DNA of 58,782 nt from the NCBI GenBank assembly GCA_027490955.1, contig JAIXXB010000001.1, positions 1-58,782 on the forward strand. The letters run 5' to 3'. The notes below the pieces were generated by a model that saw nothing but the letters and a program-made list of their open reading frames with translations, made no database searches and was not told where the DNA came from. The position numbers and the translations under genes are program-made. This DNA comes from Rhodobacter sp. (GTDB lineage: Bacteria; Pseudomonadota; Alphaproteobacteria; Rhodobacterales; Rhodobacteraceae). Shown one piece after another: positions 35,121 to 44,593 of this stretch. Position 1 is the first letter of the stretch. Every line of letters begins with the position of its first letter.

Positions 35121-36125
35121 TTATAGGCTAAGCGCCACAATCGCCACGTTCAGCACCACATAGCCAATGCCAATCACCGCCATGGCCCGCGCGTCCAAAC
35201 GTTCAGATTGGTCATCTTTGCCCAAATAGCACAGCCGCAGCGAAAAAATACTCATCGCAACGCAAAGGAAGATCGTGCCAATGGCCAAAAAGTTAATCTG
35301 TTCGGCCATGGTGATCACGGTGCTTTGCGGCAGGCTGTCAGATATCACAAAGGCATTGGCGCTGGCGGCAAAAATCGAGCCCACCCCAAGGCCAAAGCGC
35401 GCATCCAAATCTGTGGCCCTGACCTTAAAGGCCAAAAGGCCCAGCAAAACCGAAAGGCCCGCAATCCAAAACTGTTTGAACAGGGGGCCAAAGCCTTCGC
35501 GGTGCAATTCCACGTTGAAATTCAGTTGCGAATAGCTGGATGCCGCAGCACTGCTGAGCAGGCCGTAATTGGTGGGATAGACGTGATCTAACACAGTTGG
35601 CGCAGCCAGTTTCACCGCCCAACCGGGCACATTCACACCCGGATCCATCGCCGTATTCGGATCGGGCGCATACACGATCTGGTCAATCGTGGCCATTTGA
35701 TCTTCGATGCTGATGGCCAGAAAATGATCGTCCATCGGGTAGTGCTTGACATCGTAATCATGGAATACAGTCGCCTCAACGCGCAAGCTGGCATAGTTCA
35801 TATCGCCATCGCGGGCCAAGGATACCTCTGACTTATTCTCGATCCGCCCGTTCGAAATTTCGAAGGTTTCATAGGGTTTCACATTGCCGTCTTTCCAGCG
35901 AAACCATGTCCACATATCAACAGTAAAGCTGCCATCTTTCTGCACCACATCCTTGATGCGCAGAATATAGGCCCCCACCTGCACAGTGACGGGGCCGGCG
36001 GGGACGGCAGGGGCCGCCTGCACAGCGGGTGTGGCCGCATCTTGGGCCAGCGCGGATGGGGCCAAGGCGATTTGGGTGGGCAAAAGGCTGGCGATGATGA
36101 CCAGAGCAAGGCGAAGAAACCGCAT
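35121..36125 (-). CDS. Bacterial pentameric ligand-gated ion channel homologue (Cys-loop superfamily)
   Basis: 334 residues. A signal peptide of about 27 residues (ends ALAQ) and an alanine/proline linker precede an extracellular beta domain: VGAYILRIKDV, TWFRWKD with W77, and HYPMDDH (129-133), which corresponds to the loop motif FPxDxQ of pLGICs. Four C-terminal hydrophobic segments fit M1 (about 213-235), M2 (241-262), M3 (271-298) and M4 (313-333); a proline (P265) follows M2. As in other bacterial members there is no Cys pair and no long M3-M4 loop. Ligand and ion selectivity unknown. Confidence 0.75.
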   Translation of the reverse strand: MRFLRLALVIIASLLPTQIALAPSALAQDAATPAVQAAPAVPAGPVTVQVGAYILRIKDVVQKDGSFTVDMWTWFRWKDGNVKPYETFEISNGRIENKSEVSLARDGDMNYASLRVEATVFHDYDVKHYPMDDHFLAISIEDQMATIDQIVYAPDPNTAMDPGVNVPGWAVKLAAPTVLDHVYPTNYGLLSSAAASSYSQLNFNVELHREGFGPLFKQFWIAGLSVLLGLLAFKVRATDLDARFGLGVGSIFAASANAFVISDSLPQSTVITMAEQINFLAIGTIFLCVAMSIFSLRLCYLGKDDQSERLDARAMAVIGIGYVVLNVAIVALSL

Positions 36126-37170: not shown

Positions 37171-38039
37171 ATTTTTGCCTTTGCTTTCAAAAAGGTCAGC
37201 AACCCCTGCACTTTGGCAGTGCGGTGCAAATCAACATGGGTGATCAACAGAAAATCGGTTGCCCAATGCGGCCTAGGGGCCAGAATCTTTACCAAATGCG
37301 GATGCTGCCGCATGTGGTATTTGGGCATAAACCCAATGCCCGCGCCCGCCACGATGGCATCGCGCATCGCGGCAGATTCGTCCACACGGAAGGTGACGCG
37401 ATTGGCAGGCACAACCTCGGCCAGCCAATCGTTAAACGGCGCGGTCGAGGATTCCAGACCCACGAAATAATGATGGGCAAGATCCGCCTCTGATTGCGGC
37501 ATCCCGTGTCGGTCGATATAGGATTGCGCCGCCACAAGCCCTGTGGTGGTGCGGGCAAAGGGCTGCACCACATTATCGGGCTGCTCGGCACGCGCACCTT
37601 GCCGCATGGCCCGAATGGCCACATGCGCCTCGCCATATTCCAACCGAAACAGCCGCCCCCCCGTCAGAAAACGCACTGTGACATCTGGGTGCTGGGCCTG
37701 AAACTCGGCCAAGGCGGGGGTGATGAAGGGCGAAAGTTCGACAATAGACGTCACCACCAATTCGCCCGAAATAGACCCTGTTTGCCCCTTGATACGGCTG
37801 GCCAAACCCGAAAACTGCTCTTGCGTCGTTTGCGCAACCGACAGCAATTCGCGCCCTGCCTCGGTGGGGGTGTAACCGCGGGCATGGCGCTGAAACAGCT
37901 TGACACCCAGCCGCGCCTCTAGCGCGTCGATGTGGCGGATGACAGTGGCATGATGCACCGCCATCACCTCGGCCGCGCCCGAAACTGTGCCGCGCTGGGC
38001 CACATGCATGGCGGTGCGAATTTCATCCCAGTTTTCCAT
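37155..38039 (-). CDS. LysR-family transcriptional regulator
   Basis: 294 residues from ATG 38039 (MENWDEI). The helix-turn-helix covers AQRGTVSGAAEVMAVHHATVIRHI, followed by LEARLGVKLFQRHARGYTPTEAG. The effector domain is of LysR substrate-binding type. It is upstream of and overlaps the EamA gene, which it probably controls. The upstream in-frame extension has no regulator-like sequence. Confidence 0.88.
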   Translation of the reverse strand: MENWDEIRTAMHVAQRGTVSGAAEVMAVHHATVIRHIDALEARLGVKLFQRHARGYTPTEAGRELLSVAQTTQEQFSGLASRIKGQTGSISGELVVTSIVELSPFITPALAEFQAQHPDVTVRFLTGGRLFRLEYGEAHVAIRAMRQGARAEQPDNVVQPFARTTTGLVAAQSYIDRHGMPQSEADLAHHYFVGLESSTAPFNDWLAEVVPANRVTFRVDESAAMRDAIVAGAGIGFMPKYHMRQHPHLVKILAPRPHWATDFLLITHVDLHRTAKVQGLLTFLKAKAKIWDLS

Positions 38040-38203
38040 AAGCCCCCCCGTGAAGCCCCCTGTGCCAAATTCGCGCAATCTTACGCGCAGCAAACCCAAA
38101 TCCACCCGCAGGCGCAAGGGAATAAACACTGCGGCAAACCCCATTTACCGCCCGTTTAGACCAAGGGCTTTAGAATTGCATTGTTTCCGCGGCTTCACCA
38201 ATC

Positions 38204-38232
38204 TTGCATGGGGTGGCGCGGTCTGATTTAAA
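38204..38232 (+). promoter_or_regulatory. Candidate promoter of the rhamnosyltransferase-like gene
   Basis: TTGCAT (38204-38209) and TTTAAA (38227-38232) are 17 bases apart. Start would be near 38239, giving a leader of about 26 bases before the GTG at 38265. The rest of the divergent gap (38040-38203) holds nothing I can name. Confidence 0.5.
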
Positions 38233-38264
38233 ACAAGAAAAGCGAGTTTTGGGAGCGCGGCCAA

Positions 38265-39146
38265 GTGTTTGAAACGCGAGACATCTATTGCCACATTCGG
38301 TTTTCGTTTTTCGGCCAAACCGACACGCGCATGAAACCCGAAGATCACGACGCAGCCCAAGTGCAGCTTTATGACGAAACCCGCATGGCGCGGCGCTTTT
38401 TTCTGTTTGAAAACCTGACCTTACCCAGCCTGCGCGCCCAAACGGATCGCGACTTTAAGGTGGTGGTTATGTCATCGGACATCATGCCCGATAGGTTCAA
38501 AGACCGCCTGCGCGCCATCACCGCGCAAGACAGCAATATCGTGCTTGATTTCTCGACCCGCCGCAACGGGGCCTTTGCCTTTCGCCAACATATCGAAGAC
38601 AGCCTTGGCGCGGGGTTTTACAAGAGCGCGGTGCATTTTCGCCTAGACGATGATGACGCGCTTGCCAGCAATTACATCGCCCGTCTTCGGGCGGTCAGCT
38701 ATGGGCTAAGTGTTGGAACTCACATAACTTTTCCCTCTGGCCTGACGCTGTTTCCCACCCAAGCGGGCGGCCATATCGGGGCGGTTTTGCCGCATCGGCA
38801 AATGCTGATCGGCCTAGGTCTGGCCGTGGTCTGCGGCGCAAGCTTTCGCAAAAACCCCTTTCAGATGATGCATGGCAATGTCTGGCAGCGCTGGCCCGTG
38901 GTGTCCGACCCCACCTTCATCGCCTATATCCGCACACATCATCATGACAATGACACGCTAGAGGCACAAGATCGTGTGTTAGAGGAAAACCGCCGCATGC
39001 TGACAGGGCGCAAGGCGGGGGGCATTGCCCTGCGCATGGATGATGTGCTGGCGCAAAGCTTTGCCTTTACCGACCAGACGCGATTGTGCGGGCTGATCGG
39101 GGGCGTCAAAGCGGTGCAAAGCCTGTCGGATTTGCCGTCTGTTTAG
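38265..39146 (+). CDS. Putative rhamnosyltransferase / glycosyltransferase
   Basis: 293 residues, GTG start at 38265 behind GGGAG. Features of the putative rhamnosyl transferase family: RFSFFGQTDTRMKP at the N-terminus, LFENLTLPSLRAQTDRDFKVVV, and the acidic nucleotide-sugar motif FRLDDDDALASNY near residue 124. A single-gene unit, not in a polysaccharide cluster here. Followed immediately by an 11-bp tandem repeat array. Confidence 0.78.
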   Translation: MFETRDIYCHIRFSFFGQTDTRMKPEDHDAAQVQLYDETRMARRFFLFENLTLPSLRAQTDRDFKVVVMSSDIMPDRFKDRLRAITAQDSNIVLDFSTRRNGAFAFRQHIEDSLGAGFYKSAVHFRLDDDDALASNYIARLRAVSYGLSVGTHITFPSGLTLFPTQAGGHIGAVLPHRQMLIGLGLAVVCGASFRKNPFQMMHGNVWQRWPVVSDPTFIAYIRTHHHDNDTLEAQDRVLEENRRMLTGRKAGGIALRMDDVLAQSFAFTDQTRLCGLIGGVKAVQSLSDLPSV

Positions 39147-39147
39147 C

Positions 39148-39186
39148 GTATGGCATCCGTATGGTTTGCGTATGGCATCCGTAGGG
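39148..39186 (+). repeat. 11-bp tandem GTATGG repeat array (four units)
   Basis: GTATGG begins at 39148, 39159 and 39170, with a variant GTAGGG at 39181; spacing is exactly 11 bases and spacers are CATCC, TTTGC, CATCC. The array overlaps the stop of the glycosyltransferase gene by no bases and sits between core sequence and the RT islet. It matches the array at 15312-15339. Confidence 0.6.
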
Positions 39187-39262
39187 GCACGGCGCGCGGC
39201 GCGGTAACGCGGGGTTAGATGGGCGCGGTTAGACTGGCGGCGTTCCACACAGCGGGGCCGCC

Positions 39263-39652
39263 ATGACACCCAAACAGAAGAAAGAGGCCAGCTTTCACCA
39301 ACTGGCCCATGTGATGCGCAGTTTAGAGGCCGACCTGTGCTGGAAGCTGCAAGACAGCCCCCGCATCCCCGCCGCTTGGCACGAGATTGCGCAACAACGC
39401 TATCAGCCGCTAAAGCAAAAAGTCACCCTGCGGCTGGACGAAGACGTGCTGCGGTTTTTCCGCAGCATGGGGCAGGGCCACCTAACGCGGATGAACGACG
39501 TGCTGCGGACGTTCATGCTGGCAAGGCTGGCCGAGGTGGTGAAGGAAAAGGAGGAATTCACACCCCCGATCGCGAAGGAAGAGGAGTATCGGCAGAAAAT
39601 GAAGATGTTTTCTGAGATGCTGCTGGAAAGGTTGTGGGAGGAGGAGAGGTAG
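39263..39652 (+). CDS. BrnA-like antitoxin-family protein, no adjacent toxin
   Basis: 129 residues. The middle part KVTLRLDEDVLRFFRSMGQG then RMNDVLRTFMLARL is a ribbon-helix-helix of the BrnA type. The N-terminal third (HQLAHVMRSLEADLCWKLQDS) and acidic C-terminal tail lie outside the usual short BrnA. No BrnT gene is next to it, unlike the real brnTA pair at 46.7-47.2 kb. It may be a solitary DNA-binding protein. It lies 64 bases upstream of the reverse transcriptase gene. Confidence 0.7.
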   Translation: MTPKQKKEASFHQLAHVMRSLEADLCWKLQDSPRIPAAWHEIAQQRYQPLKQKVTLRLDEDVLRFFRSMGQGHLTRMNDVLRTFMLARLAEVVKEKEEFTPPIAKEEEYRQKMKMFSEMLLERLWEEER

Positions 39653-39659
39653 GGGGGGA

Positions 39660-39688
39660 TTGCATATTGTGAAGATGGGAAGTTAACT
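39660..39688 (+). promoter_or_regulatory. Candidate promoter of the reverse transcriptase gene
   Basis: TTGCAT (39660-39665) and TTAACT (39683-39688) are 17 bases apart. Start would be near 39695, giving a leader of about 22 bases with AAGGAG before the GTG start. So the gene need not depend on the BrnA-like gene for transcription, and there is little room for an upstream noncoding RNA. Confidence 0.5.
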
Positions 39689-39716
39689 TAGGAAACAATC
39701 CCAAGGAGATTTCGGA

Positions 39717-41213
39717 GTGAAGCGACTACTCGATCTGAGCGCAGCAGAAGCAAAGTCTCACTTCCTGAAGGGAAGTAGTTATTTCAATGGCGATTTTCCA
39801 GATTACATCAGTTTTGAGCCAATTTTGCAAAACGTGGCTTCTGAGTTAAAGGGGGGAGACTTCAAGTCCTGTAAATCTTCAAATCCAGATTTGTTGGCGG
39901 ATGTCAATTATAGTTTCGTTGCAAATAAAGATGGGAGATTTGCATGGCGGCCATATGAGCTGATGCATCCCGTAATTTATGTCTCATTAGTAAATCTCAT
40001 ATGCTCTGACGAAAATTGGCCACAAGTAACTGCCAGATTGGCAGCTTTTGGTAGTGGGGTCGTTCACTGCTGCAGCTCGCCAGTCATCTCTGATGACAAT
40101 CAAAAAGATCAAGCGACACAAGTGCGCAATTGGTGGCAGGCGGTTGAGCAACGTTCACTGGAGCTGTCACTAGAGTATACTCACGTGCTTCACACTGATG
40201 TGACAGACTGTTATGGCGCTCTCTATACTCATAGCATCGCATGGGCGATGCACGGCAAAGAGAAGGCAAAAAAAGCAAAGGGTAAAGGTAGCCTGTTAGG
40301 TGACAAAATAGACGAATTCATTCGTGCTGGTCGCTATGGGCAAACAAATGGCATTTCACAAGGCTCTGTTTTGATGGACTTCATCGCAGAAATGATTCTT
40401 GGCTACGTTGATCAATTAATTTCCGAGCGGTTAGGGGAAGCTAACGACTTTGCCATTCTGCGTTATCGCGACGATTATAGAATTTTCACTCATAGCGATG
40501 TGCGGGCAGAGGAAATTCTAAAGATTGTTAGTGATGAGCTTCGTTCGATGGGAATGAAGTTGGGCGTTTCAAAGACATTTATCAGCACAAATGTCGTCGA
40601 GGGTTCCATTAAGGCAGACAAGCTGGCTGGAATTGATCTTCAGGATTTGGGAGACACAAATGCAAAGACACTACAAAAACAGTTATTGCGGCTTCACTCT
40701 TTTGGAAGACGTCACCCAAATAGCGGCGCCCTTCGGCGCCTTGTCGGAGAGCTTCACTCAAAAGTAGCCAAACAAGATGTGCCCCCAGATGACTTGGCTG
40801 TTCAAGTTGCTATTGCGACGGACATTGCTGTTGTATCACCACTTACTTTTCCAGCGATTGCTGGCATCCTTAGCCATATGATTTCACTTGCTGGAAAAGA
40901 CGAAAAATTATCGCTTTGGCAAAGGGTTCATCGAAAGATGAGTAAAGTCCCTTACAATGGGTATCTTGAAATTTGGCTTCAACGCGTAACGAAACCGAAA
41001 GCTGTTGGAATTAACTACGCAAGCTCTGAAAGTATTTGCAAGATTGTAAACGGTGAAAAAGAAATCTTGTGGAATAACAGCTGGATAAACAACTCTAAGA
41101 TGCTTGCCGCTTTGGATGTTTCGCAGATTGTCGTAAAGGCGGCATCTGATGCACCAGAAGTCATGTCGCCTAACGAAGTTGAGCTTTTCAAAAAGAATGC
41201 TTGGCAATATTAG
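39717..41213 (+). CDS. Reverse transcriptase of uncertain class with YRDD active site
   Basis: 498 residues, GTG start behind AAGGAG. Palm motifs in order: RT2-like RPYELMHPVIYVSLVN (78-93); motif A HTDVTDCYGALY with D161 (159-170); motif B NGISQGSVLMDFIAEM (211-226); motif C RYRDDYRIF with the two aspartates at 252-253; and GMKLGVSKTF after it. The x in YxDD is arginine rather than the usual A, V or M. A helical C-terminal part of about 180 residues has no domain I recognise. No maturase domain, retron msr-msd or DGR parts are nearby. Base composition is clearly AT-richer than neighbours, indicating transfer. Resembles the unknown-group/defence-associated RTs; subtype not assigned. Confidence 0.85.
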   Translation: MKRLLDLSAAEAKSHFLKGSSYFNGDFPDYISFEPILQNVASELKGGDFKSCKSSNPDLLADVNYSFVANKDGRFAWRPYELMHPVIYVSLVNLICSDENWPQVTARLAAFGSGVVHCCSSPVISDDNQKDQATQVRNWWQAVEQRSLELSLEYTHVLHTDVTDCYGALYTHSIAWAMHGKEKAKKAKGKGSLLGDKIDEFIRAGRYGQTNGISQGSVLMDFIAEMILGYVDQLISERLGEANDFAILRYRDDYRIFTHSDVRAEEILKIVSDELRSMGMKLGVSKTFISTNVVEGSIKADKLAGIDLQDLGDTNAKTLQKQLLRLHSFGRRHPNSGALRRLVGELHSKVAKQDVPPDDLAVQVAIATDIAVVSPLTFPAIAGILSHMISLAGKDEKLSLWQRVHRKMSKVPYNGYLEIWLQRVTKPKAVGINYASSESICKIVNGEKEILWNNSWINNSKMLAALDVSQIVVKAASDAPEVMSPNEVELFKKNAWQY

Positions 41214-41252
41214 GCGGTATTAGGCTGAACTCAAGATAGAGTCCCCCCACCC

Positions 41253-41281
41253 TTGACTCCCCGCCCCTTTTCCTCTACCCG
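41253..41281 (+). promoter_or_regulatory. Promoter upstream of ffh / candidate sRNA
   Basis: TTGACT (41253-41258) and TACCCG (41276-41281) are 17 bases apart, with a C-rich spacer. The sequence closely resembles the rplS promoter at 47308-47337, which also has a C-rich spacer with a CTTT block. It would begin transcription near 41288. Confidence 0.6.
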
Positions 41282-41287
41282 CACCTG

Positions 41288-41373
41288 AAATCCCCAGAGG
41301 CATAGCGCTTCTGGTCCTACGGCCCAAGCCAAGGATCACCACCTGTCAGCGCGTTGCGCCCACAGGTGTTTTT
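41288..41373 (+). ncRNA. Candidate small RNA or attenuated leader ahead of ffh
   Basis: Between a good promoter and a strong terminator lies an 86-base transcript with no ORF. Stem 1 pairs 41294-41301 with 41307-41314 (8 bp, five-base loop). The 3' end is a composite hairpin: CACCTGT (41340-41346) with ACAGGTG (41362-41368), enclosing GCGC-GTT-GCGC, followed by TTTTTGTG. A second palindrome (GCCCCA-TAT-TGGGGC) lies just before ffh. It could be a discrete sRNA or an ffh leader with attenuation. It lacks the 4.5S SRP RNA core, so it is not ffs. Confidence 0.55.
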
Positions 41374-41434
41374 GTGCTTTGGGTCTTGGGTGCAACAACC
41401 GCCGCCCCATATTGGGGCAAAACAGGAGTGGGCG

Positions 41435-42931
41435 ATGTTTGAAAACCTATCCGAACGCCTTGGCGGTGTGTTTGACCGTTTGACCAAGGCGGGGGCGCTG
41501 TCTGAGGCGGATGTGGATGCCGCGCTGCGCGAGGTGCGCACGGCGCTGCTGGAGGCCGATGTCTCGCTGGAAGTGGCGCGCAGCTTTATTCGTGCGGTGC
41601 GGGTCAAGGCGACGGGGCAGGCGGTCACACGCTCGATCACGCCTGGTCAGCAGGTCGTCAAGATTGTGCACGACGAATTGGTGCGCGTGCTGGCGGGCGA
41701 TGGCGAGGCAGAGGCCCTGAAAATCGACAACCCGCCTGCTGCGGTGTTGATGGTGGGTTTGCAAGGCTCGGGTAAGACGACGACCACCGCCAAACTGGCC
41801 AAGCGGTTCAAGGAAAAGCTGGGCAAGCGGGTGCTGCTGGCCAGCCTTGACACCAATCGCCCTGCCGCGATGGAGCAGCTTGCGATTTTGGCAGGCCAGA
41901 TCGGCGTGGACAGCCTGCCGATTGTCAAAGGCGAGAGCGCGGTGCAGATCGCAAAGCGCGCGAAAACCCAAGGTGCGATGGGCGGCTATGATGTGGTCTT
42001 TCTGGATACCGCAGGCCGTTTGCACATTGACGACGTGTTGATGGATGAAATCACCGCCGTGCGCGACATTGCCCAGCCGCGCGAGACGCTGTTGGTTGTC
42101 GATGGTCTGACGGGCCAAGATGCGGTCAATGTCGCGGCCGAGTTTGACGGCAAGGTTGGCATTTCGGGCGTTGTGCTGACGCGCATGGATGGCGATGGGC
42201 GCGGCGGTGCGGCGCTGTCGATGCGGGCCATCACGGGCAAGCCTATTCGCTTTGTCGGGCTTGGCGAAAAGATGGACGCGCTGGAAACCTTTGAGGCCGA
42301 GCGCGTGGCGGGCCGTATCCTTGGCATGGGCGATATCGTGGCGCTGGTAGAGCGCGCGCGCGAGACCTTCGAGGCAGAGCAAGCCGAACGTATGGCCAAG
42401 CGGTTCGCCAAGGGTCTGTTCAATATGAACGATATGAAAGCCCAGCTAGAGCAGATGGTCAAAATGGGCGGTCTGGCGGGGCTGATGGGGATGATGCCCG
42501 GCATGGGCGGCATGGCGAAAAAGGCCGAGGCCGCAGGGATCAATGATCGCATGCTGGTGCGCCAGATCGCGCTGATCCAGTCGATGACGAAAAAGGAACG
42601 CGCGAACCCCGATGTGCTGGCCGCCAGCCGCAAGAAACGCATCGCGGCGGGCGCGGGGCTGGAAGTGTCTGATCTGAATAAGCTGCTGAAACAGCATCAG
42701 CAAATGGCTGATATGATGAAGAAAATGGGCAAAGGCGGCGGCATGAAACAGGCCATTGCCCAGATGATGGGCAAGGGCGGTATGCCCGATATGTCCAAAC
42801 TCACCCCCGAAGAAATGGCCGAGGCCGCAAAAGGCATGGGCCAAGGCATGAATATGGGCGGCGGTTTCCCCGGAATGCCGCGCGGGCTGACCCTGCCTGC
42901 GGGCCTGTCGGGGATGATGAAAAAGAAATGA
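41435..42931 (+). CDS. ffh: Signal recognition particle protein Ffh
   Basis: GTPase that binds signal sequences and 4.5S RNA to deliver ribosomes to SecYEG. 498 residues from ATG 41435 (MFENLSERLGG) with AGGAG upstream. The G domain has GLQGSGKTTTTAKLA, DTAGR and TRMDGDGRGGAAL. The M domain is methionine-rich (MMGMMPGMGGMAK) with a long Met/Gly/Lys tail. First gene of an overlapping string with three acetyltransferases and chorismate mutase. Confidence 0.97.
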   Translation: MFENLSERLGGVFDRLTKAGALSEADVDAALREVRTALLEADVSLEVARSFIRAVRVKATGQAVTRSITPGQQVVKIVHDELVRVLAGDGEAEALKIDNPPAAVLMVGLQGSGKTTTTAKLAKRFKEKLGKRVLLASLDTNRPAAMEQLAILAGQIGVDSLPIVKGESAVQIAKRAKTQGAMGGYDVVFLDTAGRLHIDDVLMDEITAVRDIAQPRETLLVVDGLTGQDAVNVAAEFDGKVGISGVVLTRMDGDGRGGAALSMRAITGKPIRFVGLGEKMDALETFEAERVAGRILGMGDIVALVERARETFEAEQAERMAKRFAKGLFNMNDMKAQLEQMVKMGGLAGLMGMMPGMGGMAKKAEAAGINDRMLVRQIALIQSMTKKERANPDVLAASRKKRIAAGAGLEVSDLNKLLKQHQQMADMMKKMGKGGGMKQAIAQMMGKGGMPDMSKLTPEEMAEAAKGMGQGMNMGGGFPGMPRGLTLPAGLSGMMKKK

Positions 42932-43551
42932 TGGCACAGGGCAATCATCCCGCGCCAGCGCAGGGCTGGCTGCATGCCCCGACTGGCCGCGCGCGCGACA
43001 TGGCCCGCGCCATCTGTGCCCCCGTGCCAAGTTTTACCACCGCGCGCCTGCATCTGCGCGCGCCCCAGATCACCGATTACCCCGCCTATGAGGCGGTGTT
43101 CACCTCGGATCGTGCCAAATACATGGGCGGGCCTTTTACCGCCGAAGCCGCCTTTGCAGATTTTTGTCAGGGCGTGGCGGGATGGGCGCTGCGCGGGGCG
43201 GGAATGTGGACAATAACAGCGCGGGGCGGCGATGATGCGCCGCTTGGCTGGATCTATCTGTGGCAAGAAATGGGGGACCCCGAGCCAGAACTGGGCTGGG
43301 TTTTGACCGCCATGGCCGAGGGCAAAGGATTTGCCCGCGAAGCGGCTTTTGCCGTTTTGCCCCATGCGGTGCAGGTTTTTGGCCCGCAGCGCTTTGTCAG
43401 CTATATCGATGCAGGCAATGACCGTTCGGCCCGTTTGGCGCGCGATTTGGGCGCGCTGCGCGACCCCATCGCCGAGGCGCAGATGGCCGAACTGGGCGAG
43501 GTTGATCTGCATGTCTATCGCCATTCAGGGGCGGGGGTGGCGCGGCAATGA
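42928..43551 (+). CDS. GNAT-family N-acetyltransferase (1 of 3)
   Basis: 207 residues. After an N-terminal stretch of about 35 residues it has TTARLHLRAPQITDYPAY, the RimJ/RimL-like opening, then LGWVLTAMAEGKGFAREAA, the acetyl-CoA loop region, and NDRSARLARDLGA. It overlaps the ffh stop by four bases (ATGA). Substrate unknown; protein N-termini or small amines are usual for this branch. Related in sequence to the next two genes. Confidence 0.85.
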   Translation: MMAQGNHPAPAQGWLHAPTGRARDMARAICAPVPSFTTARLHLRAPQITDYPAYEAVFTSDRAKYMGGPFTAEAAFADFCQGVAGWALRGAGMWTITARGGDDAPLGWIYLWQEMGDPEPELGWVLTAMAEGKGFAREAAFAVLPHAVQVFGPQRFVSYIDAGNDRSARLARDLGALRDPIAEAQMAELGEVDLHVYRHSGAGVARQ

Positions 43552-44057
43552 TCCCCCCAACCCTAACAACCCCACGCCTTACCCTGCGCGCGCCTGTGAT
43601 GGGCGATTTCGCGCAGTATGCCGCGTTTTTGGCGGGGCCGCGGTCGGGTGGGGTGGATGGGCCTTTGGATACGCGCGGGGCTTGGGCCTATTTCACATCC
43701 GATGTGGCGCTGTGGTCGCTGATGGGTGTTGGCGGGTTTATGATGCAGCAAAAGGGCGGCGGCGAGGTGGTGGGGCTGATCGCCGTGAACGTCGGCCCCC
43801 TGTTTGCCGAACCCGAATTGGGCTGGATGGTCTATGACGGCTATCAGGGCCAAGGCTTTGCCCGCGAGGGCGCAAGTGCGGTGCGCGATTGGGCGCTGGA
43901 GCAACCTGTTATCACCTCGCTGGTCAGCTATGTGGGGCGCGATAACGCCCCCTCGCGCCGCTTGGCCGAAGCCTTGGGCGCGGTGGTGGACGAAGATGCC
44001 GCCAGCCATGGCCCTGAAACTTTGGTGTATCGCTATCAGATGGGCAGGGTGCAATGA
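43548..44057 (+). CDS. GNAT-family N-acetyltransferase (2 of 3)
   Basis: 169 residues. TTPRLTLRAPVMGDFAQY aligns with the opening of the preceding protein; ELGWMVYDGYQGQGFAREGA is the acetyl-CoA binding loop and NAPSRRLAEALGA the C-terminal signature. It overlaps both neighbours by four bases. Probably a paralogue from local duplication. Confidence 0.87.
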   Translation: MIPPTLTTPRLTLRAPVMGDFAQYAAFLAGPRSGGVDGPLDTRGAWAYFTSDVALWSLMGVGGFMMQQKGGGEVVGLIAVNVGPLFAEPELGWMVYDGYQGQGFAREGASAVRDWALEQPVITSLVSYVGRDNAPSRRLAEALGAVVDEDAASHGPETLVYRYQMGRVQ

Positions 44058-44593
44058 CAGACCCTGCCCTAAACACGGCGTTTTTTGCGATGCCCGTTGT
44101 GGACAGACCAAGGCTGCGGCTGGTTGCCCCTTTGGCGCGCCATATCGCCGCCTATCAGGGCTTTATCGCGTCCGATCGCGCCATATCGCGCGGATGGGGG
44201 GCTATGCCGCATCAGGCGTGGCGCAATTTTGCCGCGCTGCTGGAACACTGGATTTTGCGCGGCTTTGGCCCCTTTGTCGCCGAGGCGAAATCGGATGGGC
44301 GTGCGACTGGCCTGTTTGGCCCTTGGCATCCCGAGGGCCAAGCCGAGCGCGAAGTGAAATGGGCGAACTGCTCTGGGGCAGATGCAGGGCAGGGATGTGC
44401 ATTCAAGGCAGCAAGCGCCATGTTGGGCCATGTGTTTGGCACCTTGGGCTGGGAAACCGCTGCCAGCTATAAATCCTACGATAATGACAGATCCGCCGCA
44501 CTGGCCCGCCGTTTGGGCGCGGCGCAAGATGGGGTTTGGACAACACCACGCGGCACTGAGCTGCGCGTTTTTCGCCATAGGGGACAGGCATGA
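44054..44593 (+). CDS. GNAT-family protein, degenerate acetyl-CoA loop (3 of 3)
   Basis: 179 residues. VDRPRLRLVAPLARHIAAY matches the openings of the two preceding proteins, and NDRSAALARRLGA matches the first. The acetyl-CoA loop is less canonical (ADAGQGCAFKAASAML). Overlaps the second GNAT and chorismate mutase by four bases each. Activity is less certain than for its two neighbours. Confidence 0.82.
   Translation: MTDPALNTAFFAMPVVDRPRLRLVAPLARHIAAYQGFIASDRAISRGWGAMPHQAWRNFAALLEHWILRGFGPFVAEAKSDGRATGLFGPWHPEGQAEREVKWANCSGADAGQGCAFKAASAMLGHVFGTLGWETAASYKSYDNDRSAALARRLGAAQDGVWTTPRGTELRVFRHRGQA

Follow-up and report, generated by a model that had tools for sequence, protein, structure and literature searches.

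The Abi-P2 enzyme of Escherichia coli forms a trimer and belongs to a family with a reported crystal structure, and it synthesizes untemplated DNA from deoxynucleoside triphosphates in vitro (PMC9508834). According to the same report, the substitution Y61F abolishes polymerization and Y46F leaves the enzyme active, and resistance to phage T5 is reported for orf570. Class 1 enzymes are described as template-free and some of them as protein-primed, with the role of the DNA in defence left unresolved (PMC13275509, PMC13174585), and for AbiA it is suggested that defence may not depend on cell death (PMC11077055). Here we describe an Abi-P2 gene that encodes a reverse transcriptase (RT)-like polymerase and lies upstream of ffh in a 58,782-nucleotide stretch of a Rhodobacter sp. 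genome (contig JAIXXB010000001.1), hereafter the window. We put at about 85% the probability that this gene encodes a stand-alone Abi-P2 phage-defence polymerase, acquired horizontally as a single gene and acting like the studied Abi-P2.

By sequence models and predicted fold, the window gene is a member of the Abi-P2 family, which has already been characterized. The PADLOC AbiP2 model matches residues 1–496 over profile positions 4–488 of 489 (624 bits, E 4.1e-188), and the runner-up family reaches 171 bits. The sequence of Abi-P2 in the Protein Data Bank (7r08) matches over nearly its full length with approximately 32% identity (E 5.4e-73). Pfam yields a single match up to E 1, to RVT_1 (E 5.8e-10), so the open reading frame (ORF) is not a chance one. 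The AbiP2 model is not among the NCBIfam matches, and by NCBIfam alone the protein lies under every cut-off: DRT4 scores 116.4 bits (cut-off 450), DRT3b 100.7 (350), DRT5 24.8 (550), DRT2 19.4 (390), DRT3a 18.6 (200) and AbiA 14.4 (250). A group II intron RT/maturase (TIGR04416, 42.9 bits, cut-off 300) and a retron RT (NF038233, 21.2 bits, cut-off 235, a model of the St85 family that covers no other retron types) were considered and rejected.

The predicted structure combines an RT-like palm and fingers with a C-terminal helical domain that replaces the thumb, and it matches 7r08. An earlier description of the window made without database searches (the first-pass annotation) had read the palm motifs correctly, as residue numbering confirms for D161, motif B (NGISQGS, residues 211–217), D252-D253 and the arginine of the YRDD box. 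It had also been right in setting aside retrons, group II introns and diversity-generating retroelements, to none of which the RT belongs by best match; the profile search that it proposed against DRT, Abi, retron and intron models returned AbiP2 as the best, full-length match. The approximately 180 C-terminal residues that had seemed to match nothing correspond to the Abi-P2 helical domain in sequence, and the structure prediction suggested for them gives that same fold. Nor is the YRDD box an oddity, as had been thought: arginine is the Abi-P2 norm, present in 23 of 23 aligned members, and the corresponding residue is V or I in four outgroup sequences (Drt3b, Drt4 and two Drt6). The proposal of an unknown-group (UG) or otherwise defence-associated RT, possibly of a poorly described subgroup, stands as to the defence-associated kind and falls as to the subgroup, which is Abi-P2. 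The apparent mystery is thereby removed, the YRDD box and the supposedly unassigned C-terminus being the ordinary Abi-P2 signature, and such genes should therefore be annotated under Abi-P2.

The 23 aligned members, including the window protein, come from Alphaproteobacteria, Bacteroidota, Actinomycetota, Bacillota, phages and plasmids; three of nine matching phage records and five of 145 matching plasmid records were fetched. Omitted were L011 (which runs off a contig end), L014 (75 residues), L022 (frame break), L111 (genome G515, one stop), L112 (the same place as L018) and the partial L002. Residues R78, D161, R249, Y250, R251, D252 and D253 are invariant in all members, and this list, with Y22 and Y30 added, offers direct guidance for mutants in this class. 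In the tree, a branch supported at 99/97 separates all 23 Abi-P2 rows from the four outgroup rows, and the window protein forms one set (100/99) with its nearest rows, L003 and L004. The outgroups are PADLOC-typed, have long branches and leave out AbiK, AbiA and UG14, so the order among Abi and DRT classes cannot be read from this tree. No stretch in the viral contigs fits the six peptide patterns of the window protein. Alphaproteobacterial Abi-P2 genes are absent from the literature matches listed, which leaves an earlier description undecided.

The window gene has a GC content of 44.3%, against 58.2% and 62.1% in its flanks, and its third-position GC (GC3) is 0.42, compared with 0.75 in ffh and 0.77 in the BrnA-like ORF upstream. 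Compared with seven relatives of the same length (L003–L009), the proportion of synonymous differences is 0.83–0.94 and that of non-synonymous differences 0.16–0.24. The protein is maintained by purifying selection and synonymous sites are saturated; as a pairwise measure this is an average over the gene's entire past and could miss a recent loss of function in the window gene.

We compared the ffh region in 14 other genomes of the genus. A match to the RT protein was found in one of them, G013 (L002), where it is weak and partial (145 residues, 34% identity) and is absent from the locus list of ORFs of at least 200 residues. Among genomes of the same taxonomic family, 6 of 394 match at E 1e-40 or better, the window's own included. 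The AbiP2 model, with a limit of E 1e-15, matches seven of 398 genomes of the phylum; three of these reach 552–623 bits (one with a stop), the other four being Drt3b, Drt4 and Drt6. None of 14 control genomes matches. In the three nearest genus genomes (G011, G009 and G013) ffh is 88–89% identical and other DNA lies just upstream of the ffh small RNA (sRNA). The slot of G011 holds a 0.8 kb insert of 44% GC with a 199-residue ORF (L048:4108-4707) that Pfam, PADLOC and PHROGs leave without a match under the limits applied, and those of G009 and G013 hold a gene for a MuF-like phage head protein (L050:1293-2990 and L049:137-1771). Nine further genomes, in which 95–708 bp separate the matched LysR-side flank from the matched ffh region, do not have the window's stretch of rhamnosyltransferase, BrnA-like and RT genes. 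In G012 no flank matches over a distance of 6.4 kb, and the G002 contig terminates inside ffh.

Because of these counts and the differing slot contents, the gene is rare and patchily distributed and seems to have been transferred, and the slot exchanges its cargo. Much of what the first-pass annotation said of the locus is borne out here. The gene is AT-rich against its neighbours, has the ribosome-binding site described and sits upstream of ffh in a conserved region, alone in a small cargo slot, and its foreign composition and patchy distribution agree with the horizontal acquisition that had been proposed. The finding named as contrary to that proposal, that all relatives inherit the gene vertically at this locus, is not what we observe: the one match among the 14 genus genomes is partial, and no readable slot carries the RT.

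The C-terminus of the G009 MuF-like protein is a CdiA_C toxin domain, small ORFs lie behind the gene, and the arrangement resembles polymorphic toxin/immunity cassettes. An inverted repeat at the slot ends, GGGGGGGTGGG on the left and CCCCCCCACCC on the right in G011, was not relied on; the window differs, its left end having only G7 and its right end C6 and then ACCC, and the left-flank stretch of G009 has no repeat. A C-rich TTGAC site at the right edge, noticed by eye as a look-alike of one near the L004 gene, was likewise set aside: it is possibly the promoter of a core gene, and nothing marks it as an integration site.

The Abi-P2 genes of the nearest relatives (in L003:5350-8534 and L004:4842-8091) lie in the ribosomal-protein operon, between rplW and rplB, and the two point in opposite directions with respect to it. 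In a survey of this site 55 of 61 same-family genomes had a match to rplW, and the best 30 of the 55, a sample that leans to relatives of L003, were fetched: rplB lies within 283 bp of rplW in 11, at 1.0–5.5 kb in 13, and 10.3 kb off or unreached in six. The shortest gap is 27 bp, and that of the window genome is 170 bp. The gap is variable and the ORFs inside it look mixed; since these were not run against defence models we do not call the site a defence hotspot, and our literature search turned up no report of one there. Small hotspots between conserved genes have been described for P2-like phages and P4 satellites (PMC9122126). That lone Abi-P2 genes are sited next to core genes of translation and secretion (ffh, rplW–rplB) points to small chromosomal cargo slots worth mining.

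We infer, on good grounds, that the window protein primes DNA synthesis on itself and proceeds without a template, because the priming residue Tyr61 of 7r08 corresponds to Y30, which is kept in all 22 rows that cover it (a matter of presence, not function), and because of the Abi-P2 literature. The remaining row, L026, begins at an internal start and so covers neither Y22 nor Y30. The protein would assemble into trimers like the studied Abi-P2, DNA would be started on the hydroxyl of its own Y30, and D161, D252 and D253 would extend it untemplated by any nucleic acid. The helical domain would hold the single strand as it grows, at the place where other RTs have a thumb and template duplex. Phage infection might then trigger or redirect DNA synthesis such that phage production fails and the cell is possibly lost; papers on the Abi-P2 class leave both the infection trigger and the outcome open. 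The gene itself would have entered the variable slot upstream of ffh by single-gene horizontal transfer. In this scheme the trimer, Tyr61 priming, untemplated synthesis and T5 resistance are drawn from the literature on relatives, and the family, predicted fold, conserved residues, purifying selection, foreign composition, patchiness and lack of conserved flanks among close relatives are established here. Probably, then, the window protein behaves as the studied Abi-P2 and defends its host.

Several observations weigh against this reading. The functional case is made by analogy with an enzyme only about 32% identical, and scans of neighbouring genes recognized no defence gene. A consensus promoter scan of positions 39500–41500 gave nothing resembling a promoter in the interval from the upstream ORF to the GTG; all four sites that it gave fall within the RT gene and are no excess over shuffled sequences (2.4 ± 1.8). 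The promoter that the first-pass annotation had assigned to the gene is thus unproven, although promoters of this lineage may differ from the consensus. The structure model is of a monomer and has low confidence at residues 69–77, 427–429 and 490–498. Y22 is as invariant as Y30 (22 of 22 covering rows), and the main text of PMC9508834 does not mention its 7r08 counterpart, Tyr53, which leaves room for another assignment of the priming residue. In addition, Tyr46 of 7r08 is replaced by His15, with histidine in 8 of 22 rows, and motif B contains SQGS where two P2-type phage enzymes have PLGS.

Several systems built on UG- and Abi-type RTs, the type to which the window protein belongs, need an adjacent RNA (PMC12039810, PMC12489045, PMC12632851), and the gene might be a class 2-like DRT that copies an adjacent non-coding RNA, as DRT2, DRT9 and DRT10 do, or a retron. 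We think this very improbable. When the flanks of 16 family genes, at most 500 bp on either side, were compared (blastn, E 0.1), they were unconserved among the window, L003, L004, L007, L008 and L009, the latter five encoding proteins 66–77% identical to that of the window; a fast-evolving RNA could escape such a comparison. Two matches only were found in this set, of 24 and 22 bp (E 0.003 and 0.037), both upstream and between L003 and L004, which share the rplW–rplB site. The window's sole match is with L005 (18 bp, downstream, E 0.010), and the neighbourhood survey that had been suggested for close relatives thus finds no conserved flanking RNA or partner. Longer common flanks (500 bp upstream and 64–177 bp downstream) are confined to L005, L006 and L022, the Rhizobium/Agrobacterium set. 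Their shared upstream part is coding: in Rhizobium a 288-residue ORF (L005:5138-6004, L006:5138-6004) overlaps the RT start codon (ATGA) and in L005 contains an Mrr_cat domain (E 1.2e-6), which suggests a translationally coupled pair, and the upstream DNA of the Agrobacterium copy (upstream of L022:6001) is 96% identical. An Rfam search of positions 38000–42000 up to E 1 matched the ffh sRNA alone, and fold and tree put the protein with Abi-P2, beside DRT4, DRT6 and AbiK.

A stand-alone Abi-P2 polymerase also accounts better for the locus than a two-gene unit with the RT under the control of the BrnA-like protein. The two ORFs are on the same strand, 64 bp apart, with no promoter seen between them, but in G011 and G009 a homologous BrnA-like ORF adjoins unrelated cargo (the G013 contig stops short of its position) and GC3 differs sharply, 0.77 against 0.42, so that we give such a unit very little credence. 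No BrnT-like partner of the BrnA-like ORF was noticed in the window, no search having been aimed at BrnT. A third possibility, an RT that is decaying or has been domesticated and has no function in defence, would fit the isolation of the gene, the promoter result and the existence of broken relatives (a frame break in L022, one stop in G515). This too is most unlikely given the intact frame, the retained motifs, the length of 498 codons shared by the window and seven relatives (L003–L009), and the few non-synonymous changes.

A separate and improbable idea concerns the product, which in Abi-P2 might be a DNA fixed by the protein itself, as in DRT3b, rather than random. In DRT3b, the product is set by the protein, and V277 of YVDD, before the DD, contacts the sugar of the nucleotide that was added last (PMC13174585). 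This position is R251 in all 23 Abi-P2 rows, and R249 and R78 are likewise invariant. The presumed base switch of DRT3b, R241, aligns with D221 (Asp in 19, His in two and Asn in two of 23 rows), an unsure assignment made by spacing, with 36 residues to the YVDD tyrosine in the 9z6y chain and 35 in PMC13174585. If the idea is true, R251 would read the 3' nucleotide and impose a sequence or composition rule differing from that of DRT3b, and Y22 could offer a second site for priming, as an alternative or a relay.

Some further features were observed. The BrnA-like ORF of G009 has a differing C-terminal tail, and the cargo change there starts inside the ORF. The Agrobacterium leguminum plasmid copy of Abi-P2 (L022:6001-7495) has a broken frame and no listed gene. 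In Escherichia phage pro147 (L021:3260-6545) two RT genes lie close together, an Abi-P2 gene and one annotated as RNA-directed DNA polymerase; the literature mentions an AbiP2 RT in the vicinity of retron Ec49 (PMC8934634). Three tandem GNAT acetyltransferase genes lie between ffh and the chorismate mutase gene (window positions 42928–44593), and in L035, L041 and L052 the chorismate mutase region follows within approximately 50 bp of the ffh match. On the minus strand at 35121–36125, a 334-residue protein weakly matches a neurotransmitter-gated ion-channel ligand-binding domain (E 2.8e-7) and is possibly a bacterial pentameric channel.

Table 1. Features of the Abi-P2 locus and its surroundings (window positions)
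Feature	Position	Strand	Basis
Abi-P2 family RT-like polymerase gene	39717–41213	+	498-residue ORF, GTG start
Ribosome-binding site AAGGAG	39703–39708	+	8 nt before GTG, from sequence
RT-like domain (fingers, palm), approximately residues 1–300	39717–40616	+	Fold match to 7r08; limit approximate, estimated from predicted helices
C-terminal helical domain, approximately residues 301–492	40617–41192	+	Abi-P2 helical domain by sequence and predicted fold
Y30 codon, counterpart of priming Tyr61 of 7r08	39804–39806	+	Alignment and numbering check
D161 codon, first catalytic aspartate	40197–40199	+	Invariant, 23/23
YRDD box, Y250-R251-D252-D253	40464–40475	+	23/23 Abi-P2 rows
Inserted segment, RT the sole recognized gene	39659–41242	+	Alignment with the nearest relative, G011 (blastn), ends at 39658 and starts again at 41243; GC drop
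BrnA-antitoxin-like ORF, 129 residues; left neighbour of the slot, outside the system	39263–39652	+	Pfam BrnA_antitoxin, E 8.2e-15
ffh sRNA (RF01793), right flank	41325–41376	+	62.1 bits, gathering threshold 35
ffh, right flank	41435–42931	+	DNA match in 15/15 genus genomes, including the window's own

Among the closest known systems is Abi-P2 of P2-like prophages (orf570 of P2-EC30; 7r08), with which the window protein shares a near full-length match in sequence and predicted fold, the YRDD box, the position of the priming tyrosine, and the RT-like plus helical domain arrangement. It differs from that enzyme in its low identity (about 32%), in the SQGS and histidine replacements noted above (the latter at Tyr46, which is dispensable in vitro), and in its setting, a chromosomal slot upstream of ffh rather than a P2 prophage. 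AbiK, DRT4 (UG15) and DRT6 are more distant: their sequence models score 94–155 bits against 624 for AbiP2, and the one Drt4 and two Drt6 rows lie outside the Abi-P2 group and have YxDD boxes other than YRDD. The chromosomal Abi-P2 proteins of Rhodobacteraceae, L003 (uncultured) and L004 (HTCC2083), are 77% and 75% identical to the window protein and likewise 498 residues long, and they too are encoded by single genes placed between core genes, although at rplW–rplB rather than upstream of ffh.
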